A stretch of 64,000 bases of DNA, from contig JACPJE010000012.1 in NCBI GenBank assembly GCA_016187725.1, positions 27,451 through 91,450 of the forward strand, written 5' to 3'. The notes beneath the pieces were generated by a model, which saw nothing but the letters and a program-made list of their open reading frames with translations, had not been told where the DNA came from and did no database searches. The DNA is from Candidatus Latescibacterota bacterium (lineage in GTDB: Bacteria > Latescibacterota > UBA2968 > UBA8231). The translations under genes were made by a program, and so were the position numbers. This document shows, one piece after another, positions 43,485 through 58,373 of the stretch; within the stretch, counting starts at the first letter, position 1, and every line of letters begins with the position of its first letter.

Positions 43485-44774
43485 TTGCCGATGGACGACC
43501 TGAATAGTTCTTCAGCCCCCCCCAAGCTGCTGTTCATCCACAGCGGTTCGCCCAAAAAGCGGCTCACCTTCGATGCCGCTTCGGCCCTTGGTCTCGATAT
43601 CTTTCTCTTCAATCCCGAACAGAACTGGGCGGTGGCCTATGCCCGCCAGACCCTGATCACTGCCGGGCTGTCGCTGCCCCGCATCCTCGATCTGGCCGGC
43701 GATCTGCACGCCCAGGCGAGCCTGGACGGGGTGGTCACCTTCTGGGAAGAGGACGTGCCCACCTGCGCGCTGGTGGCCCAGCGCCTGGGGCTGCGCGGCA
43801 ACAGCCCCGCCTCGGCCCTGCGTTCGCGCAGCAAGTTCCGCATGCGCCAGGCCTTCCTCAAGGCCGGCATCCCGGTGCCCCCCTTTGCGCGGGTCTCCAG
43901 TCCGGCGACCCTGCTGAAGGCCTGCGAAGAGATCGGCCTGCCCGCGGTGCTCAAGCCCGAGTGGGGCTCTGACAGCGAGTGGGTCACCCGGGTGGATTCG
44001 ACCCAGGAAGCCCTGGAGGTTTTCCGCGAGGTGCGCCGCCGGGTCCGGGTACAGGACTGCATCTACTCTTATCCCAACGGCAACTTTGTCCTCGAAGGTT
44101 ATCTCACCGGCCCCGAAGTCAGCATCGAAGGGGTGGTTCAGCACGGCCGGGTGACCTTCTATGCCATCATCGACAAGGCCAAGATGCTGGAGCCCTCCTT
44201 CATCGAGCGGGGGGAGTGCACCCCCTCCCGTCTGCCCCTGGCAATCCAGCAGGACATCCGCCAGATGGTGGCCCGCGGGGTGCGGGCCCTGGCACTCGAA
44301 AACTCGGGGATCCACGCCGAGGTCAAGATCACCCCGGAAGGACCGCGCATCGTCGAGATCGGCGCGCGCATGGGCGGCGACTGCATCCACGCCCTGGTGA
44401 AACGGGTCTACGACATCGACCTGGCCGAGGAAAACATCCGCGTCTCCCTGGACCTGCCGGTGCATCCCGAAATGCCGGCCCATGGCTGCGCCATCTCCCG
44501 CACCCTGGTCCCAGACCGCCCCGGGCGGGTGGTGCTGCAGTCCACCCGCGCCCTGCGCCGCAGCCGCAACCTGATCGAGGTGGTGCTCACCAAGCACCCC
44601 GGCGACCAGGTGCAGATCCCGCCCGAAGGCTACGACAACCTGGCCTGGATCAGTGTCTGGGGGCGGAACTACCGCGAGGCCCAGCGCCGGCTCGAAACCC
44701 GTTCCAGCCGCCTGGAAAATGCCTTCCTGATCCAGCCGGAAGAGGCCCTGCAGGAATACGTCCATGGCGGCTGA
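43485..44774 (+). CDS. ATP-grasp amino-acid/carboxylate-amine ligase A1
   Basis: The protein (about 430 residues) is an ATP-grasp enzyme that should activate a carboxylate as acyl phosphate and join it to an amine. After a Rossmann-like N-domain (LLFIHSGSPKKRLTFDAAS), the ATP-binding part shows LPAVLKPEWGSDSEWVTRVDS and FVLEGYLTGPEVSIEGVV. Metal and phosphate residues follow in IHAEVKITPEGPRIVEIGARMGGDCI. This plan matches BacD/TabS-type dipeptide ligases rather than biotin carboxylase or graspetide ligases. A TTG at 43485 has the best-spaced ribosome site (GGAGGG, about 7 bases); an ATG at 43491 is the alternative. It overlaps the next ligase by 11 bases. Confidence 0.85.
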   Translation: MPMDDLNSSSAPPKLLFIHSGSPKKRLTFDAASALGLDIFLFNPEQNWAVAYARQTLITAGLSLPRILDLAGDLHAQASLDGVVTFWEEDVPTCALVAQRLGLRGNSPASALRSRSKFRMRQAFLKAGIPVPPFARVSSPATLLKACEEIGLPAVLKPEWGSDSEWVTRVDSTQEALEVFREVRRRVRVQDCIYSYPNGNFVLEGYLTGPEVSIEGVVQHGRVTFYAIIDKAKMLEPSFIERGECTPSRLPLAIQQDIRQMVARGVRALALENSGIHAEVKITPEGPRIVEIGARMGGDCIHALVKRVYDIDLAEENIRVSLDLPVHPEMPAHGCAISRTLVPDRPGRVVLQSTRALRRSRNLIEVVLTKHPGDQVQIPPEGYDNLAWISVWGRNYREAQRRLETRSSRLENAFLIQPEEALQEYVHGG

Positions 44775-46104
44775 GGTTCCGCACCTGCTCCTCATCCACA
44801 CTGCCGGAGATCCGCGCCCCTACCTGGCCCGCCTGCGGCAGCGGGGTTTCCGCTTCTCGTTGATCAAAAAGCGGCCCACCACCGCCGATCGCCTCTGCTT
44901 CGACCAGGTGGTGGACTGGGATTACCAGGAAGACCTGCATCAGACCCTGGCCATCGCCGCCAGCCTCCACCGCGACCATCCCCTTTCCGGGGTGCTGAGC
45001 TTTTCGGAGAGCGGGGTGATCGCCGCCAGCCTGGTCGCCCGCCACCTGGGCCTGCCCGGCAATCCGCCGCGGGCCGCCCTGCGCGCCCGCAACAAGTATC
45101 TGATGAGGCAGACCCTCCAGCAGGCGGGCCTGCCCACCCCGCCCTTCCACCTGGTGCGCTCGGCAGACCAGATCCACGCTTTGCTGCAGCAAGCCGGCCG
45201 GCCCATGGTGCTCAAACCCATCAGCGGCTCTTCCAGCTACGGGGTCACCCGGCTGACCCCGGGCCACACCCAAGTGCAGATCGCCGCCCGGCTGGAGGAC
45301 GTGCGGGCCTATATCCGCGACTACCCCCAGCACAACCCCCAGTACCCTTTTGAATTCTGGCTGCCCCCCCAGGGTCTGGGCATTCCACCGGAGGAGATCT
45401 TCTCGCCCGAGGACGATTTCCTCCTCGAAGGGTTCATCCCCGGCCAGCAGTTCAGCCTCGATGGCCTGGCCTGCGGCGAAGCGATCACCTGCCTGGGGGT
45501 GATCGAGATCGAGCGGATCAAGGGCTCCGATTACTTCCTGGAGTACGAGGAGTGGATGCCCACCCGCCTGGGTCCCGAGCGGGAGGAAGAGATCGAGCAG
45601 GTGGTGACCCGGGCCGTGCGCGCCCTGGGCCTGCAGCGCTCCTGTTTCCACTGCGAGGTCAAGGTCAACCCCGAGGGCGTCTTTGTGCTGGAGGTGGCGG
45701 CGCGGCGGGGAGCCGACAATATCGCCGATTTCCTGCAGCAGGTCATGGGGATCGACATCTACGAGGAAGGCCTGCGCCTGGCCTGCGGCCAGACCCGCTT
45801 CTACCCCGACCTCCGCCCCCGCTGCTGCATGAGGATGCGCTACTTCCTGCCCCCGGCCTCGGGTACCCTCGAAGCCATCGAGGGCATCGAGGCGGTGAGC
45901 CGCGACCCGCGCGTCAGCGAACTCGAGTTCGAGGTCTCCCCCGGCGACTCGGTCCTCACCCCTCCCGAGGGCTTCGAGTTCCTGGGTTATCTCAGTGTGC
46001 GCGGCGCCACTCCGGAGGAGGCCGAAGCCGCCCTGGAGGAACTCTACACCCGGATCCACTTCCACATCGCCCCCGCTGCTGTTCCTGCCCTGGCGCTGCA
46101 GTGA
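44764..46104 (+). CDS. ATP-grasp amino-acid/carboxylate-amine ligase A2
   Basis: The second ligase has 446 residues and the same order of motifs: LLLIHTAGDPRPYLARLRQRG, MVLKPISGSSSYGVTRLTPG, DFLLEGFIPGQQFSLDGLACG and FHCEVKVNPEGVFVLEVAARRGADNI. An insert of about 45 residues between the ATP-lysine strand and the LEGF strand (QHNPQYPFEFWLPPQGLGIPPEE) is absent from A1 and A3 and may shape its substrate pocket. Overall similarity to A1 is clear but low, so these are separate activities rather than a recent duplication. Overlaps on both sides (11 and 4 bases) imply one transcript and tight co-production. Confidence 0.85.
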   Translation: MAAEVPHLLLIHTAGDPRPYLARLRQRGFRFSLIKKRPTTADRLCFDQVVDWDYQEDLHQTLAIAASLHRDHPLSGVLSFSESGVIAASLVARHLGLPGNPPRAALRARNKYLMRQTLQQAGLPTPPFHLVRSADQIHALLQQAGRPMVLKPISGSSSYGVTRLTPGHTQVQIAARLEDVRAYIRDYPQHNPQYPFEFWLPPQGLGIPPEEIFSPEDDFLLEGFIPGQQFSLDGLACGEAITCLGVIEIERIKGSDYFLEYEEWMPTRLGPEREEEIEQVVTRAVRALGLQRSCFHCEVKVNPEGVFVLEVAARRGADNIADFLQQVMGIDIYEEGLRLACGQTRFYPDLRPRCCMRMRYFLPPASGTLEAIEGIEAVSRDPRVSELEFEVSPGDSVLTPPEGFEFLGYLSVRGATPEEAEAALEELYTRIHFHIAPAAVPALALQ

Positions 46105-47318
46105 GCCTGGTCGTCATCCAGCCCAGCGCTGACTACGCCGCGCGGGTGCGCCGCCATTGTCCCGCCGCCCTCTTCCTCGCCACTCCTGAGCGCGCTGCCT
46201 TGCTCGCCGATCATCCCCGGGTGGTGGCCGCCGACCTCGGCGATCCCCAGGCCGCTCGCCGAGCGCTCGACAGGTACGCCGGGGCACGGCAACTGCGCTA
46301 CCGCGGCCTGACCTGCTTCATCTGCGAGTACCTGCCCCTGGCCGCCGCGCTCGCCCCGCTCCTGGGAGTGCCTTTTCACTCTCCGGCGGCCATTGGCCTG
46401 AGCCGCGACAAGGGCCGCGCCGCCCTGGCGTGGATGCGGGCGGGCGTCTCCACCCCGCCCACCTGCCTGGTCCACAGCGAGGAGGAGCTGCGGGAATTCG
46501 CCGCCCAGCACCCCGGCCCTTGGATCCTCAAGCCCACTGACCGCAGCGGCAGCGAGTGGGTGCTCAAGGTGGAGCAGCCCGGGGAACTGGGTGCAGCGCA
46601 CCACCGCCTGGAGCAAGGCTTGGAAGGAGCCCCCTATCTGGCCCAGGGTTTTGTCCGGGGCCGCGAGTTCAGCGCCGATTTCTATCTGGAAGAGGGCCGG
46701 GCCAGGCTGTTGCGTTTGACCGAGAAATACCTGCTGCCCCAGGAGAGCCTGGCCGGCCTGGTGGGCGCCTACTTCCCCGCCCGGGTGCCGGCGGCCCTGC
46801 GGGAAAAACTATTGGACACCTACCAGCGCGGGGCCCTGGCCCTGGGCGTGGAGCGGGGCATCGTCATGGTGGACTCCATCCTCAACCGGGGCACCCCGTA
46901 TCTGTTAGAGATGGCCCTGCGCCCGGGGGGCGACTGCCTGCCCGACCTCTGCCTCCACACCACCGGGTACGATCCCATCCGCGCCGCCTGCCAGGTGGCC
47001 TTGGGTCAGCCGCCCGACTTCCCCGATCTGTCCCAACCAGCGTCTCTGGCGGCCCTCCACCTGATGACCACCCGCAGCGGCCTGATCCGCGCCGTGGATT
47101 TCAGCGCCCTTGAGGCCCACCCAGCAGTGGTCCAGGTCGAACCCTACCACCTGCCCGGCGAGGAATTGCGCTGCTGGGAAGGCAGCTACGACGACCGCAT
47201 CCTGGCCGCCTGCCTAGTGCGCTGCCAGGGAGAGGAGCAGTTGCCCCCCCTGATCGAAGAGCTGAACGACCTCATCGCCCTGGAACTGGAAGCAGATCCC
47301 CTCCCTGTAGAGAGATGA
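46101..47318 (+). CDS. ATP-grasp ligase A3, most diverged
   Basis: The GTG at 46101 overlaps the A2 stop (GTGA) and begins VSLVVIQPSADYAARVRRHCPAALF; the track's earlier start lies inside A2. The 405-residue product keeps GPWILKPTDRSGSEWVLKVEQ, YLAQGFVRGREFSADFY and PYLLEMALRPGGDCLPDLC. The position of the usual H-x-E before the last metal site is changed to VMVDSILNRG, so metal binding or the amine site may differ. It overlaps the decarboxylase start by four bases. Confidence 0.8.
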   Translation: MSLVVIQPSADYAARVRRHCPAALFLATPERAALLADHPRVVAADLGDPQAARRALDRYAGARQLRYRGLTCFICEYLPLAAALAPLLGVPFHSPAAIGLSRDKGRAALAWMRAGVSTPPTCLVHSEEELREFAAQHPGPWILKPTDRSGSEWVLKVEQPGELGAAHHRLEQGLEGAPYLAQGFVRGREFSADFYLEEGRARLLRLTEKYLLPQESLAGLVGAYFPARVPAALREKLLDTYQRGALALGVERGIVMVDSILNRGTPYLLEMALRPGGDCLPDLCLHTTGYDPIRAACQVALGQPPDFPDLSQPASLAALHLMTTRSGLIRAVDFSALEAHPAVVQVEPYHLPGEELRCWEGSYDDRILAACLVRCQGEEQLPPLIEELNDLIALELEADPLPVER

Positions 47319-48694
47319 AACCCATCGACCCTGCCCTCCTCGCCGCCCTCCAACAACTGCTCGCCCAGGACGACCACCCCCTGTACCGCGGCGAACTGAC
47401 CGGCCTGGTCGAACAGGTGCTGGAAAATCGCCCGCGGTACCTGGAGGCGGCCCGCCGTTTCGGCACCCCCCAGTATCTCTTCGAGGAGCCTGCCCTGCAA
47501 GCCCAGATCCAGCGCTTCACCGTGGCCTTTGCCCGCCAGGGCCTGGTAGCCCGCCCCCACTACGCCTTCAAGGCCAACCCCACCCTCTGCCTGGTGCAGG
47601 CCATCCAGCGGGCCGGCCTGGCCGCCGACGCCTCCTCGGGGCTGGAGCTGGAACTGGCCCTGCGCTGCGGCTTTGAGCGCATCGTGCTCAGCGGCCCGGC
47701 CAAGACCGACGAAGAGCTGGAGCTGGCCCTGCGCCATGCCCAGCGGGTGACCGTGCACCTGGACAGTTTCCTGGAGCTGGAACGCCTCGGAGCCCTGGCC
47801 GCCCGCAGCCAGACCACCATCCGCGCCGGAGTCCGTCTCAACACCCAGGGCCACGGCCTGTGGACCAAGTTCGGCATCCCCTTCACCGCCCTGCCCGAGT
47901 TCACTGCCCAGGCCGGCCTCCAGCCCCACGTGCACCTGGAGGGAGTGCAGTTCCACCTCAGCTGGAACCGCCAGGCTGGCGGGTACCTGCGCACCCTAAC
48001 GGAACTGGGCCCGGCGCTGGGCCAGTGCGCCCCGCCCTCGGGCTGGAGGTTCGCCGATATCGGCGGGGGGTACTATCCCGAGGGCGACGAAGCCGCCTAC
48101 CCCTGGCTGACCCGCCGTGGCCGCCTGCTCAGCCTCCTGGGCCTGGCTCCCGCCGAGGGTCCGCCGCCCGACTGGAATCTGGAATACCTGCTCCACCCGG
48201 TCCAGCCCATCGAGGCCATGGCCCGCCAGATCATGGACGCCTTCCAGGACCATCTGCCCGGGGGACTGGAGATGTGGCTGGAGCCGGGCCGGTACCTGGC
48301 CAATCAGGCTGTACACTTGTTATTGCGGGTGGCGGATGTCAAGACTCCCCAGCTGGCCATCACCGACGGGGGCACCAATCTCCTGGGGTGGGAGCGCCTC
48401 GAAGGCGAGCACACGCCGCTCATCAACCTCTCGCAGCCGGCCCTGGTCCAAAAGCCCTGCCGGGTCTACGGCAGCCTCTGTACCCCCCACGATCTATGGG
48501 GCTACGCCTGCTACGGGGAGGGGCTGCGCCCCGGGGATGTCCTCATGCTGCCGGCCCAGGGCGCCTATGTGCAGACCCTGGCCCAGCGCTTCATCAAACC
48601 CCTCTGCCAGACCGTGGCCATCGACCTACAGGGGGAGCTGCGCCAGGCCGCCCCCACCGAAACCCTGGCTGACCGCTATCCGCAACTCCGATAA
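47315..48694 (+). CDS. PLP-dependent decarboxylase, LysA/BtrK-like
   Basis: The 459-residue enzyme belongs to the alanine-racemase-fold group of Orn/DAP/Arg decarboxylases. HYAFKANPTLC carries the PLP lysine; GVQFHLSW, FADIGGGYYPEGD, LEPGRYLANQA and YGSLCTPHDLWGYACYGEGLRPGD with the catalytic Cys follow. It differs from housekeeping LysA in its N-terminal 50 residues and in an insert near TRRGRLLSLLGLAPAEG. In known pathways such as butirosin, an ATP-grasp ligase (BtrJ) and a LysA-like decarboxylase (BtrK) act together on a ligated amino acid. A similar role on the products of A1-A3 is inferred from context. It starts within the A3 stop (ATGA). Confidence 0.85.
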   Translation: MKPIDPALLAALQQLLAQDDHPLYRGELTGLVEQVLENRPRYLEAARRFGTPQYLFEEPALQAQIQRFTVAFARQGLVARPHYAFKANPTLCLVQAIQRAGLAADASSGLELELALRCGFERIVLSGPAKTDEELELALRHAQRVTVHLDSFLELERLGALAARSQTTIRAGVRLNTQGHGLWTKFGIPFTALPEFTAQAGLQPHVHLEGVQFHLSWNRQAGGYLRTLTELGPALGQCAPPSGWRFADIGGGYYPEGDEAAYPWLTRRGRLLSLLGLAPAEGPPPDWNLEYLLHPVQPIEAMARQIMDAFQDHLPGGLEMWLEPGRYLANQAVHLLLRVADVKTPQLAITDGGTNLLGWERLEGEHTPLINLSQPALVQKPCRVYGSLCTPHDLWGYACYGEGLRPGDVLMLPAQGAYVQTLAQRFIKPLCQTVAIDLQGELRQAAPTETLADRYPQLR

Positions 48695-48859: not shown

Positions 48860-49861
<1,002 letters not shown>

Positions 49862-50398: not shown

Positions 50399-51571
50399 TC
50401 AGGCCAGCTTCTGGGCTGCCTCGCGCATCAGCGCCCCGATGGGCAGCCGGTGCGGACAGGCCGCCTCGGCCGCGCTGAAATCCACCCCCTCGATCCTTCT
50501 GGCTTCGGCGGGCAGGGCCGCGTACAGGGCCCGGCCCCGCTCCGGCTCGCCGTAGTTCTCGCTGTACATCCGGTAGCGCAGGGTGTCGGCCACCTGCAGG
50601 GGCGCCTGCAGCTGGCTCTCGCACAGTTGGCCGCAACCCCGGCAGTAGAGGTGGTCAGTGGCCGCCGCGTACTCCAGCAGCAGTTCCCGCTCCTCCATGC
50701 CCATCTCGCTGTTGCGCGCTGCCTGGGCGTTCTCCTGCACCTGGCGCAGGTTCTTCATCGCCGACACCAGGCCGTGGATGCGCCCGTCGGCCCACACCGA
50801 CTTGAGCGCGGCCTGGAAGGGGTTGAAGCCCTTGGCCTTGAACTTGTCCACCCCCTCCTGGAAGGAGACCGCCCCGCCCTGGGTCTTCATGGCGATCAAG
50901 CCGATACCCGCCGCGGCGCACAGATCCATGGCCTGGTTGAGGGCGGCATTGTCGTAGTCGCGGAAATTGTACTTGAACATGATCGCGTCCACGAAGCCCA
51001 CCTGGGCCGCCTTTTCCAGGGTGGGCACCAGATTGCCGTGGTGCGAGGAGAAACCAAAAAACCGGATCTTTTTTCCCTTCTTGAGCCGCTCGGTGGTCTC
51101 CTTCATCTCCTGGTCCAGCCGGCCCGGGTCTCCCAGATCGTGGAGGAAGTAGAGATCCACGTACTCGGTGCGCAGGCTCTCCAGGCTGCCGGCCAGCCGG
51201 GCGCCGAAGCTGGCTGCATCGTGGTGCTCGCACTTGGTGACGATGAAGCAGTCCTGACGCCGGCCGTTTTTCTCCAGAAACTGGCCGATGTTCTTTTCGC
51301 TCTGGCCCTCCATATAACCTTGGGCGGTGTCGAGGTAGGTGATGCCCTCGGCCAGGACCGCGTTGAGCAGCACCGGCGTCACCGACAGGGCCGAACCCAT
51401 GCCCAGGATGGGCACCTTCACCCCGGTCTTGCCCAGGGTGGCAATGGGCATGGCCGCTGCCCTGGATTCCTCGGCGGAGGCCAGGCCCGCGGCGCCGGCC
51501 AGCACCGCGCCAGCACCCAGGGCCCCCGAGGTAGCCAGAAACTCCCTTCGCGTGATCTTCCCTTTGCGCAT
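50399..51571 (-). CDS. Tat-exported aldo/keto reductase with C-terminal Cys cluster
   Basis: The 390-residue protein has a twin-arginine signal (ITRREFLATSGALGAGAVLAGAAG) and then an aldo/keto-reductase barrel: GKTGVKVPILGMGSA, ITYLDTAQGYMEG with the catalytic Tyr, RTEYVDLYFLHD, and a C-terminal NADP-type segment. The tail carries YCRGCGQLCESQ and a later CPHRLP, a four-Cys set typical of the Fe-S-bearing branch of the family. It is predicted to act outside the cytoplasm, where electrons could come from the adjacent polyferredoxin. It follows that gene by 15 bases in the same direction. Confidence 0.85.
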   Translation of the reverse strand: MRKGKITRREFLATSGALGAGAVLAGAAGLASAEESRAAAMPIATLGKTGVKVPILGMGSALSVTPVLLNAVLAEGITYLDTAQGYMEGQSEKNIGQFLEKNGRRQDCFIVTKCEHHDAASFGARLAGSLESLRTEYVDLYFLHDLGDPGRLDQEMKETTERLKKGKKIRFFGFSSHHGNLVPTLEKAAQVGFVDAIMFKYNFRDYDNAALNQAMDLCAAAGIGLIAMKTQGGAVSFQEGVDKFKAKGFNPFQAALKSVWADGRIHGLVSAMKNLRQVQENAQAARNSEMGMEERELLLEYAAATDHLYCRGCGQLCESQLQAPLQVADTLRYRMYSENYGEPERGRALYAALPAEARRIEGVDFSAAEAACPHRLPIGALMREAAQKLA

Positions 51572-51586
51572 CTAACTCTCCTTTCT

Positions 51587-54106
<2,520 letters not shown>

Positions 54107-54107
54107 T

Positions 54108-55214
54108 TTAGTCTCCCGCGCTTCGCAGCACTTCGGCAGCCAGGCGTCCGGCCTGTTCCCGGTCCTCGGCCTGGCTCACCCCGCCCACATGCACTCCCGT
54201 CCGGAACACCACGTCGAAGAACCCCCCCAGTTCGGCGGTGTACATCGTCAGGTCTCCCTCTGCCACCTTGATAGCGACGATCCTCCCGTACTCTCCCACA
54301 TAGTCGCTGTACTTGTCCATCACCTGGTTCGCCTTCTCCGGCGATTCCTGCCGCGACAGGAAGGCGATCAACTCCTTCCCCCCTTTGCGGTACCGGGCCA
54401 CAAAGGTCTCGCCGAGGAAATCGAGGCTGAGGGCGTCGCGCATGAAGTACTGCAGGCTGCCGGGCACCTGGCCCGCGGCCGGCAGGGCGCTCTCCCCCCA
54501 CAAGGCCTCTCCCTGGTTCTCCAGCCGGCCGGCCACCTGGCGGGCGATCTGCAGGCCGGCCCGCTCCAGCTCCTCCCCCTCCCCGCCGGCCACCACCTGC
54601 ACGTAGTGCCGGCCTTTCCAGAAGAAATAGCTGGCCCCCGACTGGTATCCGTGCCGACCCAGTTCCAGGGCCGCAGCCTCTGGTGGTCTCTCCACCGAGA
54701 AGATCCCAAAGGCGCGGATGGGCTCGCCCATATCATAGACGAATATATCGATGAAGCGCCCTTTGTCATCGGCCAGGCCCGCGCATTTCAGGTCCACCAC
54801 CGCATAGGCCAGGTACTGCTCGGCCCGGCCATTGATCTTCACGTAGAGGTCGTCCGCCGAAAACCGCTCGATCCCGCCCTGGGGACGCCATCCCGCCGGG
54901 GCCAGGTCTGCAAGCAGTTCCTTCCTCCGACCAGGAACCGACGCGGTTGCGGGTTTGACCTCAGAGACCGCCGGCGCCCGGCCGGCCGCATCCTCGCCCT
55001 CCTCGCCGGCCAGAGGGACGGGCAGGCGCGCCGCTTTGCCGCTGGCCAGCAGTGCGGGGTCCAGGGAGAAGAGGGCCGGATCGAAGCGCCGGCCCTTCAG
55101 GTACACCCCGGCCCCGATCCCCGCCAGCAAGAGCAGGATGCCCCCGCCGATGAGCCTTTCCCGCACCGAGATCCGCGTGCGTTCAAAGGCGCGTTTGCCG
55201 CTGCCGCCGAACAT
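54108..55214 (-). CDS. DUF6599-like membrane-anchored protein
   Basis: The 368-residue protein has an N-terminal transmembrane helix ([20 protein letters not shown]) and a large outer domain. It contains [36 protein letters not shown] and [14 protein letters not shown], the pattern of DUF6599 proteins. These occur next to DUF362 or 4Fe-4S membrane genes in anaerobe-type genomes, as here. The fold is beta-rich with no recognised active site. It heads the three-gene redox operon. Confidence 0.78.
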
Positions 55215-55626: not shown

Positions 55627-56610
55627 ATGCCCTGCATCCTCGCCGAGAACCTGGTCAAAACCTACCGCATCTCCCAGCGCCAGCCCGGGGTGTGGGGCGC
55701 GGTCCGGGGCCTACTGCACCGCCAGCACCGCACCCTGCGCGCCCTGGACGGGGTCTCCTTTGCCATTGAGCCGGGCGAACTGGTCGGCTATATCGGTCCC
55801 AACGGGGCCGGCAAGTCCACCACCGTCAAGGTGCTCTCCGGCATCCTGGTGCCCGATGCGGGCCGCTGCCTGGTGCTGGGCCGGATCCCCTGGCAAGACC
55901 GCATCGCCCACGTGGGGCGCATCGGGGTAGTCTTCGGCCAGCGCACCCAACTGTGGTGGGATCTGCCGGTGGTCGAGTCCTTCGAACTCTTGCGCGACAT
56001 CTACCGGGTGCCGGCCAGGGACTACATCCTCCGCCGCGATGAACTGGTCGCCATCCTCGAACTGGAGCCCCTGCTGGACGTGCCGGTGCGCCAATTGAGC
56101 CTGGGCCAGCGCATGCGCTGCGATCTGGCCGCCTCCCTGCTCCACGCCCCGGCACTGCTCTTCCTCGACGAGCCCACCATCGGCCTGGACGCCCTCTCCA
56201 AACTGGCGGTGCGCGACTTCATCCGCCGCCTCAACCGGGAGCGCGGCACCACGGTGATCCTCACCACCCACGACATGGACGACATCGAAGCCCTGTGCAG
56301 CCGGGTGCTGCTCATCGACGGGGGGCGGATCCTGTTGGACGACACCCTGGAGGGCCTGCGTGCCCAGGTCTCCTCCGAGCGCCGCCTGATCCTCGACCTG
56401 GTCGAAGACGGGCAACCCTTCAGCGATCTCCAGGTCCGCCTCCTCCGGCGCGAAGGCCGCCGGGTCGAGCTGGCCTTCGACCCCGAGGAGATCCCGGCCG
56501 CCGCCCTCATCAGCCGGCTCACCGCCCTGCACGCGGTGCGCGACCTCTTTGTGGAGAATCCCCCCATCGAGGAGGTCATCGCCCACCTCTACCGCCAAAA
56601 CCAGGGATGA
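55627..56610 (+). CDS. ABC exporter ATP-binding protein
   Basis: The 327-residue ATPase drives the two permeases that follow. Walker A (YIGPNGAGKSTTVKVL), signature (LSLGQRMRCDL), Walker B (LLFLDEPTIGLD) and the switch His (TTHDMDD) are all intact. The C-terminal 80 residues form a domain seen in DrrA-type or polysaccharide/drug exporters. The ATG at 55627 is preferred to the TTG at 55621. It overlaps the first permease as ATGA. Confidence 0.93.
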   Translation: MPCILAENLVKTYRISQRQPGVWGAVRGLLHRQHRTLRALDGVSFAIEPGELVGYIGPNGAGKSTTVKVLSGILVPDAGRCLVLGRIPWQDRIAHVGRIGVVFGQRTQLWWDLPVVESFELLRDIYRVPARDYILRRDELVAILELEPLLDVPVRQLSLGQRMRCDLAASLLHAPALLFLDEPTIGLDALSKLAVRDFIRRLNRERGTTVILTTHDMDDIEALCSRVLLIDGGRILLDDTLEGLRAQVSSERRLILDLVEDGQPFSDLQVRLLRREGRRVELAFDPEEIPAAALISRLTALHAVRDLFVENPPIEEVIAHLYRQNQG

Positions 56611-57398
56611 GGAGCTATCTGGCGGTCTTCAGCGCCCGGCTGCGCATGCTGCTCCAGTACCGGGCCGCTGCCTTTGCCGGCCTGGCCACTCAGCTCTTCT
56701 GGGGCCTGATCCGCGTCATGATCTTCGAGGCTTTCTACCGCACCACCACCAGCCCCCAGCCCATGAACTACGCCCAGGTCGTCGACTATGTCTGGCTGGG
56801 CCAGGCCCTCCTCGCCCTGCTGCCGATCTGGATGGATACGGAGGTCCGTGCCATGATGCGCAACGGCACGGTGGTCTACGAGCTGGTGCGTCCCCTGGAC
56901 CTCTACAATTTCTGGTACGCCCGGGCCCTGGCCTCCCGGCTGGCGCCCACGCTCTTGCGCGCCCTGCCGCTCGGTGGCCTGGCCCTCCTCTTCTTTGGGC
57001 TCGCCCCGCCCGTCTCCCCTGCCGCCGGCCTGGCCTGGCTGCTGACCGTCCTGGGCGCCCTGCTCCTGGGCGGGGCCATCTCCACCCTGCTGAACATCTC
57101 GCTGATGTGGACCATCGCCGGGGAGGGCATCTTCCAGATCGTCGCCGCCTGCGTCGTCCTCCTATCCGGCATGATCGTGCCCCTCCCCTTCTTCCCCGAC
57201 TGGATGCAGGTGGCTTTGAAGTCGCTGCCCTTTGCTGGCCTGGTGGACCTGCCCTTCCGCCTCTACACGGGTCATATTCCCGCCGCTGAGGCGCCGGCCA
57301 TCTTCGCCGGCCAGCTGGCCTGGACCGCAGCGCTGGTCGGCCTCGGCCGTCTGGTCCTGCGCCGGGGCATCCGCCGCCTGGTGGTGCAGGGAGGCTGA
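56607..57398 (+). CDS. ABC-2 type permease 1
   Basis: The 263-residue membrane protein has six helices and matches the ABC-2 (DUF990-like) branch: YLAVFSARLRMLLQYRAAAFAG, NGTVVYELVRPLDLYNFWYARALA and GMIVPLPFFPDWMQ. The ATG at 56607 overlaps the ATPase stop. It pairs with permease 2 to form a heterodimeric exporter; the cargo is unknown. Confidence 0.9.
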   Translation: MRSYLAVFSARLRMLLQYRAAAFAGLATQLFWGLIRVMIFEAFYRTTTSPQPMNYAQVVDYVWLGQALLALLPIWMDTEVRAMMRNGTVVYELVRPLDLYNFWYARALASRLAPTLLRALPLGGLALLFFGLAPPVSPAAGLAWLLTVLGALLLGGAISTLLNISLMWTIAGEGIFQIVAACVVLLSGMIVPLPFFPDWMQVALKSLPFAGLVDLPFRLYTGHIPAAEAPAIFAGQLAWTAALVGLGRLVLRRGIRRLVVQGG

Positions 57399-57413
57399 AA
57401 AGATGTGGAACAA

Positions 57414-57546
57414 GCGCGGCGGGGAGATGACCCCGAAGGCCTTTACTGGGGGAGTGGAGGCCGGGAAAGGGCCTGGGGGCAGAGTGGGGCGTCGGTGGCA
57501 GGCCCGGGCATCGGGAAAGGCCGGAGCGGGTCACTCACCGTCGCGC
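57414..57546 (+). repeat. Intergenic palindromic element, copy 3
   Basis: The ends pair as GCGCGGCGG/CCGTCGCGC, GAG/CTC, GACCC/GGGTC and GGCCTTT/AAAGGCC, keeping the AU bulge between the second and third blocks as in copy 1. The interior is more diverged but keeps GGGGGAGTGG and CCGGGAAAGG. It lies between the two permease genes of one exporter operon, so it must be transcribed. Confidence 0.65.
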
Positions 57547-57572
57547 CGGAATCTCTGTGGTAAACCACTACC

Positions 57573-58373
57573 ATGAACGCCCTCCGCCTCTACCTGCGCT
57601 ACCTGGGGGTCTCCTGCCGGGGCCAGATGCAGTACCGCGCCTCCTTCCTCATGCTCACCCTGGGTCACTTCCTCATGACCGGCCTGGAGTTCGCCGGCGT
57701 CTGGGTGATCTTCTCGCGCTTCGGCAACCTCCAGGGTTGGTCCCTGCCCGAGGTCGCCCTCTTCTACGGCATCATCAACATGGCCTTTGCCCTCAGCGAC
57801 GCCACCTCGCGCGGCTTCGACATCCTGCCCACCCTGGTCAAAAACGGCGAGTTCGACCGCATCCTGCTGCGCCCGCGCAGCACCGTGCTGCAGCTGGCCG
57901 GCCAGGAGTTGACCCTGCGCCGCGTCGGCCGCTTCTCCCAGGGCCTGCTGGTGTTCCTCTGGGCCGCCCACACCCTGGAACTGAGCTGGTCGCTGGCCAA
58001 AATCGCCCTGCTCTTAACCACCCTCCTCGGCGGGGCCTGCCTCTTCTACGGCCTCTTCGTGCTCCAGGCCACCATGGCCTTCTGGACCACCGAGACCCTG
58101 GAGATCATGAACACCCTCACCTACGGTGGGGTGGAAACCGCCCAGTATCCGCTGGTCATCTACCGCGCGTGGTTCCGCCGCTTCTTTACCTTGGTGGTGC
58201 CCCTGGCCTGCGTCAGCTACTACCCGGCCCTGGCCCTGCTGGGGCGCGCCGACCCGCTGGGCTCGGCGATTGTCCTGCACTGGCTGGCGCCCCTGGTGGG
58301 CCTCCTCTTCCTGGTCCTGTGCCTGCAGGTCTGGCGCTGGGGCGTGCGCCACTACCGCTCCACCGGCAGTTGA
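57573..58373 (+). CDS. ABC-2 type permease 2
   Basis: This second six-helix permease (266 residues) belongs to the same branch: YLRYLGVSCRGQMQYRASFLM, NGEFDRILLRPRSTVLQLAGQE and QYPLVIYRAWFRRFFTLVVPLACVSYYPALALLG. It is separated from permease 1 by the palindromic element, unusual for partner subunits that are normally tightly linked. Confidence 0.9.
   Translation: MNALRLYLRYLGVSCRGQMQYRASFLMLTLGHFLMTGLEFAGVWVIFSRFGNLQGWSLPEVALFYGIINMAFALSDATSRGFDILPTLVKNGEFDRILLRPRSTVLQLAGQELTLRRVGRFSQGLLVFLWAAHTLELSWSLAKIALLLTTLLGGACLFYGLFVLQATMAFWTTETLEIMNTLTYGGVETAQYPLVIYRAWFRRFFTLVVPLACVSYYPALALLGRADPLGSAIVLHWLAPLVGLLFLVLCLQVWRWGVRHYRSTGS

Follow-up and report, generated by a model that had tools for sequence, protein, structure and literature searches.

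Four overlapping genes in a 64,000-nucleotide stretch of DNA from a Candidatus Latescibacterota bacterium (the window) probably encode a pathway that is self-contained and horizontally transferable, leads to a short decarboxylated peptide or amide and uses neither a carrier protein nor an NRPS. We put the probability of this reading at roughly 60%. It rests on gene order, conservation, fold families, the retention of catalytic residues, a fusion of two of the ligases and a recurrent link between decarboxylase and ligase. The genes of the cassette and the neighbour considered with them are as follows.

43491..44774, plus strand: g1, ATP-grasp ligase 1, L-amino-acid-ligase type (ATG start; Pfam ATPgrasp_N, ATP-grasp_4 and LAL_C2)
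44764..46104, plus strand: g2, ATP-grasp ligase 2, L-amino-acid-ligase type (Pfam, PDB matches, alignment)
46101..47318, plus strand: g3, diverged ATP-grasp ligase 3 (GTG start; Pfam, AF2, Foldseek)
47315..48694, plus strand: g4, fold-III PLP decarboxylase of a distinct subfamily (Pfam/NCBIfam, motif alignment, tree, fold)
48860..49861, plus strand: acetylpolyamine-amidohydrolase-like hydrolase of the HDAC superfamily, optional partner (Pfam, PDB matches, distribution)

Gene layout and enzyme families

An earlier note on this DNA had described four overlapping genes for three ATP-grasp ligases and a PLP decarboxylase. All four reading frames were found where it had placed them, with successive overlaps of 11, 4 and 4 bases, and their products carry ATP-grasp domains (g1 to g3) and both Orn/DAP/Arg decarboxylase domains (g4) in Pfam. 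The note had started the cassette at 43485, where an in-frame TTG does offer g1 an alternative start; we took the ATG downstream of it, at 43491, as the start. The same-strand genes upstream read as housekeeping (rpsP, rimM, trmD and rplS, assigned by reading the sequence). As the note had also claimed, neither a carrier protein nor an NRPS adjoins the cassette among the profiled neighbours, and no carrier protein was found among the reading frames beside the cassette or among the conserved genes.

An ABC transporter, assigned by sequence, lies 7 kb downstream of the cassette (55627-58373) and was considered as its exporter. It was not counted as such, since only the window's genus shows this synteny and the cassettes of other genera have no such transporter beside them. 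No co-conserved exporter, regulator or resistance gene was found travelling with the nine cassettes that we compared. Between the cassette and the transporter, on the minus strand (50399-55214), a twin-arginine aldo/keto reductase, an 839-residue protein with DUF362 and ferredoxin domains and a DUF6599 protein are encoded in tandem; this trio had no synteny in the relatives compared.

All three ligases resemble L-amino acid ligases such as BL00235 and BacD, and dipeptide-forming activity is predicted for them. The products of g1 and g2 match ATPgrasp_N, ATP-grasp_4 and LAL_C2 above the Pfam cut-offs, and both match BL00235 and BacD, the best solved relatives of g1 (BL00235 as 3vot), with BacD NCBIfam scores of 76 and 40 bits, respectively, against a cut-off of 850. 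The g3 product is more diverged by sequence: it scores above cut-off for ATP-grasp_3/4 and has no LAL_C2 match. Its predicted fold (AF2 model, pLDDT 85) is closest to L-amino acid ligases, with 3vot the top Foldseek match and BacD and RizA in the first five, all at 12-19% identity. Alignment bore out the observation that the ligases differ in inserts and metal motifs, since g2 carries an extra segment of about 30 residues, with RRGAD replacing RMGGD, and the first metal-site strand of g3 reads MVDSIL, with D for the E of HAEVKI and HCEVKV in g1 and g2. A further change in g3 places Q for E at the adenine-side position.

The orthologues of g1, g2 and g3 form three separate clades across the range of the cassette. 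Thus, the ligase genes were duplicated before the cassette spread, all three copies have been retained, and none of them looks redundant. In one genus g2 and g3 are fused into one continuous reading frame with a proline-rich linker (L025:7368-9983 and L026:3-1724), which is independent evidence that the two ligases act together.

The product of g4 is a fold-III PLP decarboxylase of a distinct subfamily and is not LysA. Orn_Arg_deC_N and Orn_DAP_Arg_deC both score above the Pfam cut-offs, the fold matches, and the catalytic residues are invariant in both alignments (A1 and A2). The protein retains the PLP lysine K86, H214, the glycines at 250-252 (GGG), EPGR at 323-326, C389 and Y418, and its motif stretches are HLSWN (214-218), LGWERLE (357-363), CTPHDLWG (389-396) and QGAY (415-418). 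The claim that it is unlike the housekeeping enzyme was well founded. Its best NCBIfam match is lysA (TIGR01048), at 129.6 bits in two pieces against a cut-off of 297.9, and the helix R-P-S-L/M-Y and the CESGD motif of the LysA references are replaced by G-W-E-R-L-E and CTPHD, which are largely kept across the subfamily. Furthermore, the genome encodes its own LysA on another contig (C66), which keeps RPSLY and CESGD and whose full-length score of 270 bits also falls slightly short of the cut-off. On the score, the lost motifs and this separate gene, we rejected g4 as the housekeeping LysA.

In the g4 subfamily, GGG and E[PV]G are separated by 69-76 residues, compared with 36-43 in the LysA references, so that about 30 extra residues lie beside the active site. 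Thirteen sequences make up the subfamily, as one clade with support of 1.00. The AF2 model of g4 is good in its core and poor in the insert and the substrate loops; its structural neighbours are D-ornithine/D-lysine decarboxylase (the top match), LysA, FslC (7kh2), BtrK and SbnH (6knh). The FslC NCBIfam score is 43.4 bits against a cut-off of 500. Decarboxylases matched in Pseudomonas (L031 and L035) fell outside the subfamily in the tree, and a search for relatives of g4 on plasmids gave only distant decarboxylases of 25-29% identity; Y4yA-type and Streptomyces type-III enzymes were among them. On an Antarctobacter plasmid, two adjoining genes for diverged fold-III PLP enzymes are annotated as hypothetical (L066:3070-6290).

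The earlier note had mentioned an HDAC-family gene. Such a gene is present at 48860-49861 and adjacent in 6/9 cassettes, and by its PDB matches, 9gkz (8e-80) and 3q9b (2e-77), both full length, it is more specifically acetylpolyamine-amidohydrolase-like. The catalytic residues (HH, DxH, D and Y) are kept in PGHH, DxDxHH, SAGFD and EGGY. Two acidic residues of the M. ramosa acetylpolyamine amidohydrolase (APAH), E106 and E117, presumably recognise the polyamine chain; the aligned residues in the window protein are V and T, a difference that weighs little, as the solved 9gkz also lacks the two acids. The gene adjoins the cassette in the window's genus, except in one genome (G002), and in both genomes of a second genus (g5), and is missing from the remaining three. 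Its spacing from g4 is a 4-base overlap in L023 and a 165-base gap in the window. We treated the amidohydrolase as an optional partner of the cassette.

Distribution of the cassette and of the ligase-decarboxylase link

The same four-gene order was found in nine genomes in a search of the relatives of the window's genome and of GTDB contigs, a recurrence that is more than chance. The carriers are 5/5 genomes of the window's genus, one and two genomes of two further genera of the same family, and one further MAG. All are uncultured and mostly draft MAGs. Essentially all four genes are visible in 8/9 cassettes; one contig (L026) begins inside g2, and in another (L028) the contig edge cuts into g1. 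The records of the relatives are mostly titled Latescibacterota or Candidatus Handelsmanbacteria, and two Gemmatimonas-type titles were taken as loose labels. The overlaps of 11, 4 and 4 bases are identical in all five genomes of the window's genus, and dN/dS against the congeners is 0.09-0.29; the cassette genes are under purifying selection. Conservation confined to this contig, or a close match of each gene to a characterised pathway, had been named beforehand as outcomes that would overturn the proposal. The gene set is kept well beyond the contig, and no such match was found for any of the genes.

Within the window's phylum the cassette is patchy (8/64 genomes), and it is absent from all 11 genomes of a sister genus (g7). 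The ninth carrier (L024, genome G064) has an NCBI title of Verrucomicrobia and a GC content of 48%, and its flanks differ. The cassette thus occurs in at least two phyla, with L024 placed by its record title and by its absence from the 64-genome set of the window's phylum. Cassette flanks are unrelated between genera as well as in L024, where the cassette has 50% GC and the flanks 47%; the window cassette has 68%. Identities to the window for g1 to g4 are 52, 56, 45 and 62% in L024, as high as, or close to, the 63, 58, 50 and 60% of a sister-genus locus (L025), and g1 orthologues span 50-93% identity (8 loci). The simplest reading is that the cassette has spread horizontally as one unit. Right after the cassette, L024 carries an N-formylglutamate-amidohydrolase-like gene followed by MATCAP (DUF1704) peptidases, and glutathione-synthetase-like ATP-grasp genes, apparently tandem-duplicated, accompany these in a peptide-ligase/peptidase cluster (L024:11811-21361).

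The link between ligase and decarboxylase also extends beyond the cassette. In 13 of the 15 genomes examined, the subfamily decarboxylase is preceded by an ATP-grasp gene, either immediately or with one gene between them, a raw count with no genome-wide baseline. In G123 and G889, of the same class and from the phylum of G064, a g3-like ATP-grasp gene directly precedes and overlaps the g4-like gene. G452 (L029) and G522 (L063) come from a single order, in which a Myxococcales-titled MAG is included, and in both a Ddl-like ATP-grasp gene and a second gene precede the g4-like gene. This second gene gave ATP-grasp matches in L029 and no Pfam match in L063. The ligases of this Myxococcales-titled lineage differ from those of the cassette.

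Two low-GC genomes (G104, locus L059, and G116, locus L060) have a subfamily decarboxylase with no neighbouring ligase, and the g4 subfamily may therefore have a ligase-independent substrate. At these loci (L059:8276-13409 and L060:4741-9879) a protein of about 1270 residues is encoded next to the decarboxylase; the one in G104 has DUF3857 and a transglutaminase core, and the G116 gene is similar in length. On a plasmid of Streptomyces sp. NBC_01276 (L067:4368-11052), a more distant decarboxylase lies two genes from a g1-like ATP-grasp gene; the genes there encode a 2OG-Fe dioxygenase, a methyltransferase, the LysA-like decarboxylase (annotated as alanine racemase), an MFS transporter, the g1-like ATP-grasp and a GNAT protein.

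Proposed order of steps and alternative explanations

ATP-grasp enzymes form an acyl-phosphate and then join it to an amine. What we infer, as to the number of bonds, the substrates, the order of the steps and the role of the amidohydrolase, is as follows. Each of the g1, g2 and g3 ligases would convert one carboxylate to an acyl-phosphate and couple it with an amine, forming up to three amide bonds, and g4 would remove one alpha-carboxylate to leave an amine end. In some lineages the acetylpolyamine-amidohydrolase-like enzyme may then trim or unmask an acyl-amine. The sequence suggested in the earlier note, in which free amino acids are ligated first and decarboxylation comes later, is possible, but the genome data fit either order. 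Fold-III PLP decarboxylases need the alpha-amino group next to the departing carboxylate to be free. If ligation came first, the amino acid would therefore have to be linked through its side chain; otherwise decarboxylation would come first and supply the amine. BtrK, SbnH and FslC decarboxylate amino acids that are attached through the side chain, and by analogy with them we tentatively prefer an order in which a ligase, most likely g3, would first acylate the distal side chain of an amino acid and g4 would then act on it. This preference for decarboxylation after ligation is modest and comes from the altered specificity helix, the enlarged insert and the close pairing of g3 with g4. A broader proposal, possible although we would not bet on it, sees in the g4 subfamily a new class of PLP decarboxylases that act on an amino acid which a dedicated ATP-grasp ligase (g3) has already linked through its side chain; such a pair would be a general module that has been recombined with other ligases in several phyla. 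If true, this carrier-free g3-g4 relay would make a new class of decarboxylated pseudo-peptides.

Alternatively, g4 could supply a building block by decarboxylating free ornithine, lysine or a similar free amino acid, with the ligases capping the resulting amine with amino acids to give a peptidyl-polyamine, by a logic like that of E-64 or phevamine. We consider this unlikely, as the specificity helix differs from that of LysA, the larger active-site insert hints at a larger substrate, and the neighbour has V and T in place of the two acidic, presumably polyamine-binding APAH residues. Moreover, g4 is missing from no cassette, though a supply enzyme can be dispensable. Its appeal lies in D-ornithine/D-lysine decarboxylase as the top structural match of g4, in the APAH-like neighbour itself, and in the E-64 cluster, where a PLP decarboxylase proposed as the diamine source adjoins an ATP-grasp enzyme and an amide synthetase (PMC12568646).

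The other explanations fare worse. That g4 is a second diaminopimelate decarboxylase, with the ligases engaged in lysine, purine or cell-wall synthesis, would agree with lysA as its best NCBIfam match, with the frequency of ATP-grasp enzymes in primary metabolism and with the position of the cassette after rplS/trmD-like genes in the window's genus. The score far below cut-off, the loss of the LysA motifs, the separate LysA and the patchy distribution, including the complete absence from genus g7, make it very improbable. Siderophore assembly of the staphyloferrin B or rhizoferrin type, with an SbnH- or FslC-like g4, is suggested by the structural neighbours SbnH and FslC; but no IucA/IucC-type synthetase, exporter or receptor is among the genes profiled beside the cassette, its ligases have the different ATP-grasp fold, and the FslC score is far short of its cut-off, so that we regard this as extremely improbable. 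Hardly any weight can be given to conjugation for amine breakdown or detoxification, in which the ligases would add an aminoacyl handle to be processed by the decarboxylase and the amidohydrolase: three ligases exceed the need of one protecting step, and the conserved unit has no oxidase, dehydrogenase or uptake system, even though an APAH-like hydrolase adjoins most cassettes.

Comparison with known systems and implications

BtrJ and BtrK work on the carrier protein BtrI, and the substrate of BtrK is a carrier-protein thioester. This butirosin pair resembles the cassette in joining an ATP-grasp enzyme to a LysA-fold decarboxylase, and BtrK (2j66, 7ru7) is near g4 by sequence and fold; no carrier protein was found here, however, and the cassette has three ligases in place of BtrJ alone. 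SbnH and FslC are likewise LysA-fold neighbours of g4 and act after acylation of an amino-acid side chain, but their partner ligases are NIS synthetases rather than ATP-grasp enzymes. The acetylpolyamine amidohydrolases 3q9b and 9gkz share with the cassette's neighbour a full-length match and the catalytic residues; the two acidic positions set the neighbour apart. Small peptide natural products are known to be made by free-standing ATP-grasp ligases. BacD of bacilysin, BL00235 and MboC/MboD of mangotoxin (PMC13185094) are free-standing ATP-grasp L-amino acid ligases whose domains or fold are shared by g1 to g3. Such systems usually combine other tailoring enzymes with one ligase or two, whereas the cassette has three. 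We know of no L-amino acid ligase system with a paired fold-III decarboxylase.

The overall logic, in which NRPS-independent peptides are made by ATP-grasp ligases and a PLP decarboxylase, is already known, for example from E-64. The E-64 and cp1-cp2 clusters (of fungi, with mfa of Microcoleus) encode an Fe/aKG oxygenase, an hGSH-synthetase-like ATP-grasp enzyme, an ANL amide synthetase and a PLP decarboxylase, and removal of the decarboxylase left the products unchanged in a heterologous host (PMC12568646). Like the cassette, they combine a free-standing ATP-grasp enzyme with a PLP decarboxylase, use no NRPS and join an amino acid to an amine (PMC12568646). The cassette differs in having three L-amino-acid-ligase-type ATP-grasp enzymes where E-64 has one, and neither an ANL enzyme nor an oxygenase.

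Both the gene set and the decarboxylase subfamily appear not to have been described before. Neither the exact set nor the g4 subfamily was found in the profile libraries and open-licence PMC papers searched, in keeping with the earlier note, which knew of no described pathway with these genes. To our knowledge, nearly all known examples of peptide natural products made by free-standing ATP-grasp ligases come from culturable bacteria and fungi, and we know of no cultivated member of the carrier lineages. The cassette offers a compact, testable four-gene pathway and an unexplored decarboxylase subfamily repeatedly tied to ligases. The motif of this subfamily is a search handle for related clusters, and the cassette enzymes could serve amide synthesis.
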